Below are positions 5,877 to 40,736 of a DNA stretch of 40,736 nt, piece by piece. Below the pieces are notes generated by a model. The model saw only the letters and a list, made by a program, of their open reading frames with translations. It was not told the origin of the DNA and did no database searches. The DNA is from a virus. The stretch is taken from positions 1 to 40,736 of IMG/VR virus record IMGVR_UViG_3300042934_001321; one strand, given 5' to 3'. Numbering within the stretch: position 1 is the stretch's first letter; the number at the start of each line of letters is the position of its first letter. The translations under genes were made by a program, and so were the position numbers.

Positions 5877-6338
5877 TTACTTCTGCGGGTGGTTGGCGTA
5901 CTTCAGAAAGAAATCATACAGCTGCTTATAGCGCATTTCGAAAGCAAGTAGCATGTTCTTGGCTTCGACACTTGGGAACTGTCGATACACCCGAACCAGT
6001 CTCTTTTCGTCTTCGCTTAGTTTACTGAATTCAGTATCACTTTCTGTATCTGGTTCTGTGGTCGGTAACGCTAAGCCCGGAAACTCTGTGTCGGGAAGCT
6101 TAACTGGTGCACTCTCACCCTCGCCATAGTCTAGCCATGCCGCCTGGACATTCAGCCAGTCAGCTATCTTCTGCAATTTCTCATCGCGTGGCTTTGCCGT
6201 GCCCAGCGTATAACGACGAGCCATTTCATATGTGACATCGCAAGCCTGGCTTAGATCCTTGACGGAACGGCGCTGTCTGCGCATTTCTTCGGTCAGCCGG
6301 TTCGCGAAATCCTGATGTTTATTCGCTTTTTCTACCAT
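5877..6338 (-). CDS. CI-like repressor without peptidase domain
   Basis: The N-terminal half is an XRE/Cro-CI helix-turn-helix (HQDFANRLTEEM, VKDLSQACDVTYEMARRY, AKPRDEKLQKIADWL), the usual lysogeny repressor fold. The remainder is an acidic linker and a short helical tail (EDEKRLVRVYRQFPSVEAKNMLLAFEMRY) that probably multimerises. There is no S24/LexA-like domain, no Ala-Gly cleavage site and no Ser-Lys dyad, so RecA-stimulated self-cleavage is not expected. I chose ATG 6338 (153 residues) because family members have only a few residues before the HTH; ATG 6374 would give 165. A perfect operator palindrome overlaps ATG 6338, pointing to autoregulation. It is the only CI-like gene in the window. 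Confidence 0.82.
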   Translation of the reverse strand: MVEKANKHQDFANRLTEEMRRQRRSVKDLSQACDVTYEMARRYTLGTAKPRDEKLQKIADWLNVQAAWLDYGEGESAPVKLPDTEFPGLALPTTEPDTESDTEFSKLSEDEKRLVRVYRQFPSVEAKNMLLAFEMRYKQLYDFFLKYANHPQK

Positions 6339-6346
6339 AGGTAGAA
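6330..6346. promoter_or_regulatory. Perfect operator palindrome at repressor start
   Basis: TTCTACCATAGGTAGAA is a 6-5-6 perfect inverted repeat (CTAC at 6332-6335, GTAG at 6341-6344). It overlaps the likely repressor start codon and shares the CTAC-N5-GTAG pattern found at PR and PL. Confidence 0.75.
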
Positions 6347-6376
6347 GAGTAAGGCACGGCGCGTTTATAGTCATTT

Positions 6377-38125: not shown

Positions 38126-38548
38126 ATGTCTGTTTTTTATAGTGCAACTACTAATGGATTTTATTCGTCAGGGTTGAAAGATGATTATGTAACTGCCGGT
38201 ACATGGCCCGGAGATACCATAGAGATTTCAGACCGCTGGTATAACCACCTGTTTGAGGGACAATCAAATGGTAAAATTATTACTGCAAATGAATACGGCC
38301 AACCTGTGCTGAAAGACCTGCCAGAGCCGACAAGAGAAGAATTAATATCAACAGCGGAGACACAAAAACACTATTTAATATCCGAAGCGACAATTGTGAT
38401 TGCACCTCTTCAGGATGCATTGGATTTGGGTATCGAAACAGAGCATGAAATTTCAAAGCTTCAGGCATGGAAAGTATACCGTGTTGCGCTGAACCGGATT
38501 GATACCAGTTCAGCACCTAATATCAACTGGCCTGTTCGCCCTGAGTAG
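38126..38548 (+). CDS. Tail fibre assembly protein (Tfa)
   Basis: The 140-residue protein starts MSVFYSATTNGFYSSGLKDD and has ISDRWYNHLFEGQSNGKII, LKDLPEPTREELISTAETQK and LSKLQAWKVYRVALNRID-type C-terminal sequence. These are Tfa-family marks. It is a chaperone for folding of the fibre's distal end, and cognate pairs are exchanged together. Its last 26 bases overlap the 3' end of the convergent acyltransferase gene. Confidence 0.92.
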   Translation: MSVFYSATTNGFYSSGLKDDYVTAGTWPGDTIEISDRWYNHLFEGQSNGKIITANEYGQPVLKDLPEPTREELISTAETQKHYLISEATIVIAPLQDALDLGIETEHEISKLQAWKVYRVALNRIDTSSAPNINWPVRPE

Positions 38549-39644
38549 TATTCTTTTCAGTGCGATTTATATCTGTAATAAACTTAGCGCGAAGTTTATT
38601 AGTTAAAGTTAGCTCTATGTATCGGTAAGAAAGGTATGCAGCTAATATTGATATTAAAATAAGAAAAATAAACCCTGTTACATTATGAATAATGTCAGGG
38701 TTTGTCTTTTCTATCTTTCTTGCAATGAAATCCTTCAATGGGTTGTGTATAAGATATAAGGAAAATGATATGTTTCCGAGGTTGATTAGGAATTTAGGGA
38801 GTGTATATGTAATGATCTGATTGTGAAGCGCGAAGATCAAAACTAAGATCGAGAATGCGGCTCCCGACACTAAATTGTATGAGGTTAGTTGCTTGTAATA
38901 TATTCCAATTCCAATTAATAAAGTTGAAATTAGCGGAGGCAATAAAGATGCCCCTTTATACATGCGTCTAATTTTTTTATAAATGATTCCAGATGCAATC
39001 CCCATACCGAACTCAAGAATGATAGGGTTTGTGATAAATTTAATGATGACTAAATGGTAGTTGTAACCTTGAGTCGAAAGAGCGATATTTGAAAATAAAA
39101 AAGATGATATGATTACGGGCGCAGCAAACCATGATGCAAGCGTGATCAAACGATGTTTAAACAGCAAGCAAATGGCAAAGGCAAAATAAAAATAAAGTTC
39201 ATAATTAAGAGTCCATCTTACATTGTACATGCCCGAAGCAAGAATGTACAAAGGGGCGTGCTCATGTAAATAAGGAATAAAAGTTATTGCACTTATCAAA
39301 TTATCTATTTTTTCTTGATAATGAAATGTGCTCATCGCCCCCCCAGTAAGGAAAGCAAAAATAAGTACAATATAATACAAAGGGATAATACGAATAACCC
39401 TGTTAAGAATAAAGTGGGCAGATGTTCTTATGCCCGGAGATTTATCAGATGTGACGTAATGCATGATAAAACCACTTATCACAAAAAATAAATCGACACC
39501 GATTGCGCCCCAACCGAAAACCGCATCGGGGAATGACCTGTCAGCCCCCTCAGGAACAAGATAGGAACGGAAATGAAACATCACCACCGAAAGGGCTGCA
39601 AAGCCTCTTAGAATTTGTATGGAGTCAATTCTTTGACTGCTCAC
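38523..39644 (-). CDS. Acyltransferase 3 family O-acetyltransferase
   Basis: The 373-residue, strongly hydrophobic protein carries the family's N-terminal motif IQILRGFAALSVVMFHF with catalytic-type histidine. IGVDLFFVISGFIMHYV, RVIRIIPLYYIVL and ISFSLYLIHNPLKDF follow, with about ten membrane segments. Phage members acetylate O-antigen or other surface sugars (lysogenic conversion), which can block superinfection by phages using the same receptor. The GTG start has AAGGAT about 7 bases upstream. The gene is much AT-richer than the tail genes and points the other way, signs of a separately acquired cargo gene expressed in the lysogen. Confidence 0.9.
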   Translation of the reverse strand: MSSQRIDSIQILRGFAALSVVMFHFRSYLVPEGADRSFPDAVFGWGAIGVDLFFVISGFIMHYVTSDKSPGIRTSAHFILNRVIRIIPLYYIVLIFAFLTGGAMSTFHYQEKIDNLISAITFIPYLHEHAPLYILASGMYNVRWTLNYELYFYFAFAICLLFKHRLITLASWFAAPVIISSFLFSNIALSTQGYNYHLVIIKFITNPIILEFGMGIASGIIYKKIRRMYKGASLLPPLISTLLIGIGIYYKQLTSYNLVSGAAFSILVLIFALHNQIITYTLPKFLINLGNISFSLYLIHNPLKDFIARKIEKTNPDIIHNVTGFIFLILISILAAYLSYRYIELTLTNKLRAKFITDINRTEKNTTQGEQAS

Positions 39645-39728
39645 ATTAACTATCCTTATTAGAAAACAGGCATGAATGAGATTGCGTTACTAAGCCCATA
39701 GAAAGACTTGCATTGTAGCAAGATCCTT

Positions 39729-39755
39729 GCAGCTCTTCTAACTAAGAGGAGCTGC
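39729..39755. promoter_or_regulatory. Hairpin between acyltransferase and antirepressor genes
   Basis: GCAGCTCTTCT-AACT-AAGA-G-GAGCTGC forms a long stem with one bulged base. No T-run follows in either direction. It may help end antirepressor transcription or act as a processing site. Confidence 0.45.
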
Positions 39756-39769
39756 ATTTGCACCATTTA

Positions 39770-39783
39770 GGGTCATATGACCC
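39770..39783. promoter_or_regulatory. 14-bp perfect palindrome
   Basis: GGGTCATATGACCC is perfectly self-complementary and lies between the antirepressor stop and the acyltransferase promoter region. It is a candidate operator for the acyltransferase gene. An additional inverted repeat GTTAGAAA/TTTCTAAC (39802-39809, 39826-39833) spans the antirepressor stop. Confidence 0.4.
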
Positions 39784-39818
39784 AGCGCATTCTTCGAATC
39801 AGTTAGAAACCATGATCA

Positions 39819-40388
39819 TTAATGTTTTCTAACTTGTTCAACCCTTGAGATCATTTCGTTAAGCTCATTAATGGTCAATTTACCCGCCTCATTAGCTGGA
39901 ATAACCACGAAACCACATCGCATTACATGCTCCAAGCATGAGTCGGGGCTCATAACTACTTCGCCAGGCATAAGGGGGTGGCACGCTACCGGCAGACCGT
40001 TTTCGAAGTAGGTGATCACAGCATAATTTTGACGAGCCGCAGCCTGACTCACTTGATGGACAGGCTCCACAACTTCTTTATCGAGGATGTCTAATACCCA
40101 TTTACGGAATTCTTTTGCGACCGGTGTTCTGGCAAACATGGCGATCAGATGGGCACCGCGCAGGGAGAAGATACGGACTTTTTTTCGATAATTTCCTGAG
40201 GTCACTGATTCAGTGACCTGAGTCATTTCTGATGTGAACTCGTCTTCATTTTGGTTGTATAGGTTGGTGATGGATTTGGTGCTTGAGTATTCGAGAGCTT
40301 CTGCAATCTGGGATGACGTTAACCAGAATTTGTTGTCGCGGATAGCTGGTGTGAAAGTATGACTACGGAAAGTTAACTCAGTATTCAT
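39819..40388 (-). CDS. BRO-N family phage antirepressor
   Basis: The 189-residue protein has an N-terminal BRO-N domain: DNKFWLTSSQIAEALEYSS, KSITNLYNQNEDEF, KVRIFSLRGAHLIAMFARTP and AKEFRKWVLDIL (about 15-115). A C-terminal domain of unknown function follows (FENGLPVACHPLMPGEVV to the end). BRO-N proteins in P1, P22 and many prophages are antirepressors that bind and disable lysogeny repressors. The leader upstream contains a c4-like antisense RNA and an Icd-like leader ORF, the P1 arrangement. AAGGA lies 7 bases before ATG 40388. Its natural target is probably the short repressor at 5877-6338, which lacks self-cleavage. Confidence 0.85.
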   Translation of the reverse strand: MNTELTFRSHTFTPAIRDNKFWLTSSQIAEALEYSSTKSITNLYNQNEDEFTSEMTQVTESVTSGNYRKKVRIFSLRGAHLIAMFARTPVAKEFRKWVLDILDKEVVEPVHQVSQAAARQNYAVITYFENGLPVACHPLMPGEVVMSPDSCLEHVMRCGFVVIPANEAGKLTINELNEMISRVEQVRKH

Positions 40389-40414
40389 GGGATAATCCTT
40401 CGCTGCTTAGGTTA

Positions 40415-40448
40415 TCACCACTACTGACGCCAATCAGTAAGGTGGTGA
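40415..40448 (-). promoter_or_regulatory. Antirepressor leader hairpin
   Basis: TCACCAC/GTGGTGA and inner ACTGA/TCAGT arms (40415-40448) form a hairpin about 27 bases before the antirepressor start. Its loop contains TTGGCGT (in RNA sense), identical to the loop of the c4-like RNA and complementary to the target upstream. Confidence 0.65.
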
Positions 40449-40519
40449 GACGTACAGGGTTGGCGTAACCGGCAGCAAAGACCCGGCGCGGATTTCTCCG
40501 CCCCCGCACGCCCCACCAT
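40421..40519 (-). CDS. Icd-like leader ORF (32 residues)
   Basis: The short frame starts at ATG 40519 and encodes MVGRAGAEKSAPGLCCRLRQ followed by PCTSHHLTDWRQ, ending in TAG at 40421, 33 bases before the antirepressor ATG. The sequence recalls the N-terminus of proteins annotated as Icd-like host cell division inhibitors, but it ends early. Both regions complementary to the c4-like RNA lie inside it. In P1, translation of icd is needed for ant expression, so this frame may be the switch through which the RNA silences the antirepressor. No strong ribosome site is seen. Confidence 0.58.
   Translation of the reverse strand: MVGRAGAEKSAPGLCCRLRQPCTSHHLTDWRQ
40458..40480 (-). promoter_or_regulatory. 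Target sites for the c4-like RNA
   Basis: In the antirepressor transcript, ACGCCAA (40466-40460) is fully complementary to TTGGCGT of the c4-like RNA. CTTTGCTG (40480-40473) is complementary to CAGCAGAG at 7 of 8 bases. The two blocks lie in the same order as in the RNA, matching the a'/b' scheme known for P1 and P7. Confidence 0.7.
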
Positions 40520-40547
40520 AATGCGAAAGTGGCCGTGCTCAACGCAT

Positions 40548-40622
40548 AAAAAAACCGCTTAGCGCGGTTATGCGCTCTGCTGATTCCGGGACGCCAATCC
40601 CGGCACCAGATTTTGCTGGTGC
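40548..40622 (-). ncRNA. c4-like antisense RNA controlling the antirepressor
   Basis: Downstream of the promoter, the transcript has hairpin CACCAG-CAAAAT-CTGGTG (40621-40604), then CCGGGA-TTGGCG-TCCCGG (40603-40586). A single-stranded CAGCAGAG (40582-40575) follows, then terminator AACCGC-GCTAA-GCGGTT with T-run (40569-40548). The length, about 75 nt, fits P1/P7 c4 RNA (about 77). Loop and tail are complementary to two blocks in the antirepressor leader. The identification rests on this complementarity and order; I cannot run a covariance search. Confidence 0.72.
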
Positions 40623-40628
40623 AAGGTG

Positions 40629-40657
40629 AGTATGGGAAAAAATCATTTTTATGTCAA
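40629..40657 (-). promoter_or_regulatory. Promoter of the c4-like RNA/antirepressor transcript
   Basis: On the minus strand, TTGACA (40657-40652) and CATACT (40634-40629) are separated by 17 bp. Transcription would start near 40622, at the first hairpin of the c4-like RNA. Confidence 0.75.
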
Positions 40658-40674
40658 CGCAAGCCAGAAAAAAC

Positions 40675-40703
40675 TGTCCGAATCTGGTCCGAACATGTCC
40701 GAA
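40675..40703 (+). repeat. Three integrase arm-type repeats (right end)
   Basis: TGTCCGAA (40675-40682), GGTCCGAA (40686-40693) and TGTCCGAA (40696-40703), spaced 11 and 10 bp, match the left-end set in sequence, number, orientation and spacing. The window ends 33 bases later. No copy of the sdsR 3' end appears, so the right core lies outside. Confidence 0.7.
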
Positions 40704-40736
40704 ATTTTAGGTAACTATATGATTTTTAGTGCCTGA

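Follow-up and report, generated by a model that had tools for sequence, protein, structure and literature searches.

A C4/IsrK-type antisense RNA module ahead of a BRO-N antirepressor gene at the right end of an enterobacterial prophage

Organization of the right-end module

The right end of the window (the whole stretch of viral DNA analysed here, 40,736 nucleotides) raises the question of how the antirepressor gene located there is controlled, and which of the elements ahead of the gene is the regulator. The window is a prophage inserted at the SdsR/RyeB-SraC/RyeA small-RNA locus adjoining yebY (441-585). The host, an enterobacterium, has a yebY region about 80% identical to its counterpart in Escherichia coli, and the prophage has a lambda-type terminase and portal and a contractile tail. 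On the minus strand at its right end, a promoter, a terminator-ended RNA, a second structured RNA, a ribosome-binding site (RBS) and a BRO-N gene follow one another. Rfam covariance models, scanned over the whole window as a control as well, match all three RNA parts in the expected order and above the curated gathering cut-offs (50 bits for RF01394, isrK; 46.7 bits for RF03163, c4-a1b1; 45 bits for RF01695, C4), with E values of 1e-13 to 1e-16. The module is judged to be C4-type because of these matches, the P1-like order of its parts and the covariation of both pairings. By these sequence features it is a genuine and complete C4/IsrK antirepressor module, in which a C4 antisense RNA very probably keeps the antirepressor silent in the lysogen and IsrK would serve as the decoy that frees ant. 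A complete C4-type control module had been proposed in a first-pass annotation made from the letters alone, and the Rfam models bear this out. The elements of the module are as follows.

40629..40657, minus strand: sigma-70 type promoter, TTGACA-17-CATACT (-35 box 40657-40652, -10 box 40634-40629)
40548..40622, minus strand: IsrK-type leader RNA of about 75 nt, the c4-a1b1 target element (RF01394, 78.3 bits)
40583-40635, minus strand: c4-a1b1 element (RF03163, 49.2 bits)
40591..40597, minus strand: target a1, TTGGCGT, a hairpin loop complementary to a' (40460-40466)
40575..40582, minus strand: target b1, CAGCAGAG, pairing with b'
40561..40576, minus strand: candidate antiterminator hairpin AGCGC/GCGCT, which shares bases with the end of b1 and with the 5' arm of the terminator
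40553..40569, minus strand: IsrK intrinsic terminator, AACCGC-GCTAA-GCGGTT-TTTTT (sequence check and isrK model)
40438..40523, minus strand: C4 antisense RNA (RF01695, 71.7 bits)
40441-40517, minus strand: predicted mature C4, 77 nt, starting with GGTGGGGCG as in P1
40472..40481, minus strand: C4 loop b', TCTTTGCTGC, pairing with b1 and b2
40460..40466, minus strand: C4 element a', ACGCCAA, the exact complement of a1 and a2
40421..40519, minus strand: 32-codon frame across C4, the counterpart of Gifsy-1 orf45 (reading frame only)
40427..40433, minus strand: target a2, TTGGCGT, a copy of a1 in the loop of a perfect ACTGA/TCAGT hairpin
40397..40406, minus strand: target b2, GCAGCGAAGG, spanning the ant Shine-Dalgarno sequence AAGGA
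39819..40388, minus strand: BRO-N antirepressor gene ant, 189 aa, directly under b2 (PF02498, 47.9 bits against 25.6)

Regarding the promoter, which is present as first annotated (TTGACA, 17 bp, CATACT), 10 of 12 positions agree; it is the best match in its region, which as a whole shows no enrichment of promoter-like matches, and its position is conserved in Gifsy-1. The putative transcription start was placed at 40622. The RNA that follows had been described as a structured, C4-like RNA with a terminator. Its existence stands, whereas its identity does not, as it is the isrK model that matches; the score above the cut-off, the intrinsic terminator and the position upstream of an antirepressor all agree with IsrK. 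Where a match to the C4 model had been expected (40540-40630), none is found; instead, the isrK and c4-a1b1 models, that is, the targets of C4, match there. In this RNA, a1 with its flanks forms a duplex with a' of -15.2 kcal/mol and co-varies with a' in relatives, and the b1/b' duplex has eight pairs, including one G.U (-11.4 kcal/mol). Both complementarities had been noticed at first reading, in the correct collinear order: TTGGCGT with ACGCCAA (40597-40591 versus 40466-40460), and CAGCAGAG with CTTTGCTG, which pair at 8/8 positions counting the G.U pair. TTGGCGT occurs nine times in the window versus seven expected, so that the 7-mer match by itself proves nothing; the pairing is accepted on the covariance-model matches and on co-variation across loci. 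The first IsrK hairpin (40603-40622) has the loop GCAAAATC, which is nearly the same in P1 (GCAAATTC) and is not complementary to any known C4 segment. The loop stretch CAGCAAAA of this hairpin was considered as a b1-type target and dropped, as it is invariant in relatives while the C4 loop varies; judged from the relatives, CAGCAGAG is the correct b1 site.

The C4 RNA of the window scores higher with RF01695 than that of phage P1 itself (68.8 bits). Its predicted mature form begins at GGT, an RNase P-type GGW site, and has the same predicted length as in P1. The three-stem structure is kept by compensatory changes: 95.1% of cells are paired across 59 sequences, and 14 pairs have both sides changed, with 166 double-changed cells versus 40 in shuffles, although the counts for stem 3 are depressed by a one-column alignment shift. 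As is characteristic of C4, a' and b' are complementary to a1 and b1 upstream and to a2 and b2 downstream, with b2 at the RBS. Co-folding did not show C4-target pairing because loop-loop contacts are not represented in the folding.

The TTGGCGT copy near ant had been interpreted as a self-mimic of the loop. The hairpin copy is real; the role of mimic does not hold, since this is the known second target a2, lying beside b2, which the annotation had missed. The b2/b' duplex consists of ten contiguous pairs (-15.4 kcal/mol), and in relatives b2 usually starts 15-22 nt ahead of the ATG. The BRO-N antirepressor gene proposed earlier is confirmed by the PF02498 match, and ant also matches PHROG 5060, anti-repressor Ant (E 1.4e-39), as well as other PHROGs. 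The earlier name "c4-icd-ant-like" is right about C4 and ant and wrong about icd: between C4 and ant, no icd is found, ant being the first frame after b2, with no Icd-like match. Of 45 relatives, 9 have an Icd-like frame after C4; BRO-N, ORF6N, Rha or P22-type antirepressors are found in others. The gene that comes directly after ant, on the same strand, encodes an O-antigen-type acyltransferase (38523-39644). An acyltransferase gene (49% identical) likewise lies behind the closest relative of ant (L083, 81% identical), and ant and the acyltransferase gene may share one transcript.

Co-variation of antisense and target elements

When viral contigs were scanned for the leader motif, 86 distinct modules proved usable, and their C4 loops comprised 47 different sequences (b' alleles). 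Another locus, L186, has the same b' loop as the window. At least seven contiguous pairs are formed between b' and its own b1 in 46 of the 47 alleles, versus 12% of swapped loci, and between b' and its own b2 likewise in 46/47, versus 38% of swapped loci. A single 8-nt stretch of b' pairs with both its own b1 and its own b2 in 37 of the 47 alleles (1.3% when swapped). The scan pattern left the b elements, a' and a2 free and fixed part of a1, and the conservation of a1 in this set is therefore uninformative. For this reason, the test of a' was redone in a second set of loci, picked by antirepressor protein similarity instead of an RNA motif, with P1 added as a reference. An exact complement of a' is present upstream in 24 of 31 protein-chosen loci (2.5% swapped) and downstream in 26 of 31 (1.4% swapped), with 14 a' alleles represented. 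As own-locus matches lie far above swapped ones, this co-variation indicates that both the a and the b elements evolve as triplets of one antisense copy and two target copies. The elements, their RNA-family membership and the co-variation of the a and b pairings were obtained directly in this analysis. With 47 b' alleles and their matching targets, RNA-based immunity types would be legible from sequence, and prophage cross-immunity would thus be predictable and testable.

Proposed control of ant and alternative readings

In the proposed mechanism, a single promoter would drive the entire transcript, and most transcripts would stop at the IsrK terminator to yield the 75-nt RNA with a1 and b1. 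Read-through would give C4 and the ant message, from which cleavage by RNase P at GGT is predicted to generate the 77-nt C4. C4 would then bind the ant message at a2 and b2, covering the ant Shine-Dalgarno sequence. Abundant IsrK, with its copies of both targets, would bind C4 and free ant, and the target of Ant would be a repressor, either that of the prophage itself (5877-6374) or a different one. For the phage in the window, this full mechanism is extrapolated from studies on P1/P7 and Gifsy-1 and from the co-variation.

Phage RNA switches of the C4/IsrK type are already known, and the window adds one further example; the C4 link to a lambda-head, P2-tail phage, which the first-pass annotation considered noteworthy, is not exceptional, as similar modules occur in Gifsy-1, phiV10, TL-2011b, Stx phage P27 and others. 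Repression by C4 has been demonstrated in P1/P7 (PMC5320573, PMC8546580, PMC8198154, P1 record). The window shares with the annotated P1 genome (immI) the order a1, b1, C4, a2, b2 and antirepressor operon, and its C4 shares with that of P1 the three stems, the predicted 77-nt mature RNA from GGT, b2 on the Shine-Dalgarno sequence and a-type TTGNNNN. The differences are the lack of icd, a BRO-N protein instead of Ant1/Ant2, a and b elements of different sequence, a single promoter found where P1 has two, and a strong IsrK terminator, whereas the isrK match of P1 (35.1 bits) is below the cut-off. No C1-type operator such as that of P1 was recognised in the window module. phiV10, TL-2011b and other E. 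coli phages carry the same RNA module (79-80% DNA identity), in phiV10 with a BRO-N antirepressor near tail-fibre genes; they have other b alleles (phiV10, CCTTTTAG) and belong to another phage type.

The isrK-orf45-anrP locus of the Salmonella prophage Gifsy-1 has 75% DNA identity to the window over 218 nt. Both have the promoter at the same position, IsrK, its terminator, the C4-region RNA (STnc1160 in Gifsy-1), an antirepressor and identical a elements. They differ in the b allele (TCGGTGAT versus TCTTTGCTGC), in orf45, which is not kept in the window, in anrP, which is a different protein from the window ant, and in their surroundings, as the Gifsy-1 locus adjoins the Q antiterminator and the window module adjoins attR. 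Numbering of Gifsy-1 from the A of ACGCCAGC reproduces all checked positions of the IsrK paper (PMC4825925), and the published mutants can thereby be mapped, G28A and G31A to a1 and C159U and C162U to a'. As the IsrK mutations fall exactly in a1 and a', IsrK and C4 would constitute one system. With a' mutated, basal anrP translation climbs from about 4 to 484-926 units, a gain of about a hundredfold or more; matched double mutants show only a partial return of expression, and IsrK with a broken a1 loses trans activation (PMC4825925). The partial return would follow from a2 being still mismatched. Judged by this mapping, the mutants behave as a C4 repressor with an IsrK decoy would predict. Trans activation of the antirepressor by IsrK has been shown for Gifsy-1 only (PMC4825925). 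Mutations of a1 in cis raise expression (PMC4825925), which departs from a pure IsrK decoy and fits attenuation or cis-pairing, and co-expressed STnc1160 gave no relief of IsrK toxicity (PMC4825925), which fits a simple decoy less well.

The term C4 RNA is absent from the IsrK paper, which likens STnc1160 to the CI immunity RNA of satellite phage P4, with possible action at the IsrK terminator (PMC4825925). According to that paper, the P4 CI RNA is likewise processed from a leader and pairs with target copies upstream and downstream of itself; it acts on the termination of replication genes and not on an antirepressor, and the likeness is drawn from the paper, not from sequence. A shared C4-isrK transcript was remarked for Burkholderia cenocepacia (PMC4603805), and a 2025 review handles C4 and IsrK separately (PMC12197685). 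The module joins these two mostly separate lines, the P1/P7 C4 repressor and the Gifsy-1 IsrK activator. If this is true, the published IsrK mutations affect the targets and the loop of C4, and C4 has its natural decoy in IsrK.

Control may extend to the IsrK terminator. In most relatives, pairing is possible between the 3'-end bases of b1 and the terminator's 5' arm and loop, at a site that is constant in most of them while its letters differ (GAGC/GCTC, TGGCG/CGCCA, GTGAC/GTCAC). The observed pairing of 429.5 narrowly exceeds the maximum of 427 in 5,000 permutations, and because of this narrow margin and the kinship among the leaders, support for the antiterminator is graded as moderate. A second helix across the T run (GCGCAT/ATGCG, 40549-40576) co-varies more clearly (572.5 versus 527.5); with this flanking complementarity, read-through RNA is able to form a longer hairpin. 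If the antiterminator is real, C4 bound to b1 would favour termination. A joint reading would then have C4 act at two levels, masking the ant Shine-Dalgarno sequence and blocking the antiterminator through b1; IsrK would be both the termination product and the decoy that ends termination, in a self-feeding loop, and the b elements an interchangeable address that evolves separately from the protein repressor, in the manner of an immunity type. This combination is put forward tentatively and, taken as a whole, is rather doubtful.

The Gifsy-1 authors attribute activation to translation of orf45, not to C4 (PMC4825925): the leader RNA would alternate between two folds, IsrK acting in trans would free the start of a short frame upstream, translation of this frame would carry ribosomes into the antirepressor, and a separate C4 would be unneeded. 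Published Gifsy-1 mutants, including start and stop codon changes, argue for this model (PMC4825925), as does the Gifsy-1 frame ending on the anrP start. The same mutants also fit C4, however, and the model leaves the b'-b2 co-variation on the antirepressor Shine-Dalgarno sequence unexplained. In the window, the corresponding frame starts in a C4 stem and ends 32 nt before ant begins, and a Shine-Dalgarno sequence of its own precedes ant. The 32-codon leader ORF of the first-pass annotation is thus present as a frame, but it sits inside the C4 RNA and was rejected as a conserved gene, since it extends to the antirepressor in only 39 of 80 relatives. Translation-coupled activation of ant is accordingly improbable for the window.

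Decay of the module into a remnant, with ant or the RNA switch no longer working, is a still weaker candidate. The cassette is optional among phages with near-identical repressors, and G.U pairs occur in both b1 and b2; against decay, the promoter, terminator, C4 stems, six pairing elements, Shine-Dalgarno sequence and full-length antirepressor are all intact. The least credible is the original role assignment, which makes the terminator-ended RNA upstream a C4-like repressor, the leader ORF its target and TTGGCGT near ant a switching self-mimic: its collinear complementarities exist, and the upstream RNA of Gifsy-1 does act in trans on the same stretch, but as an activator (PMC4825925), while the roles are swapped by the C4 model, which matches the "leader ORF" (RF01695, 40438-40523, minus strand) and not the upstream RNA, by the P1 record, which has C4 downstream of a1/b1, by the lack of conservation of the leader ORF, and by the "mimic" being accompanied by a b2 partner that lies on the ant Shine-Dalgarno sequence and co-varies with the C4 loop.

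Prophage relatives and overlapping annotations

A further point counted against the C4/IsrK reading is that most phages with a near-identical repressor are without the module. Repressors at least 87% identical occur in 22 records, several of them fragments, and two of these records carry C4. One of the two, L317, shares the end, promoter and arm sites with the window and has a different b' (TTGGTTTC). This other b' beside a near-identical repressor suggests that the RNA can acquire a new specificity without a change of the protein repressor. As read from records L317 and L316, neither the antirepressor nor the RNA specificity goes with a given repressor, and the cassette is optional. By eye, no operator shared between the likely operator region of the repressor and the C4 promoter was seen. 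Megablast matches to 38500-40736 are present in 610 of 5,426 complete E. coli genomes, and two of these were checked by Rfam.

The module also bears on a protein family found in many genome annotations. The "ash family protein" (PF10554, 53-55 bits), a common E. coli annotation, is a translation across the entire IsrK-C4 module, as in two records:

L338:1465-1740: Ash-type frame across the IsrK-C4 module (PF10554)
L339:1462-1737: Ash-type frame across the IsrK-C4 module (PF10554)

In L338, the TTG of the -35 box TTGACA doubles as the start codon of this frame and precedes the predicted RNA start by about 36 nt. In the window, a third frame (40381-40542) gives a weak PF10554 match (20.2 bits). 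The Ash family may be misread RNA rather than protein.

The C4 promoter adjoins the arm sites of attR. TTCGGAC repeats with 10/11-bp spacing lie at both prophage ends, at 40676-40703 and 616-643. They were rejected as operators upstream of the promoter, as the same repeats with the same spacing stand beside the integrase at the other end, and they are probably integrase arm-type sites. A left-end stretch of 30 nt (556-585) recurs in L325, beyond the part that matches the right end of the window.
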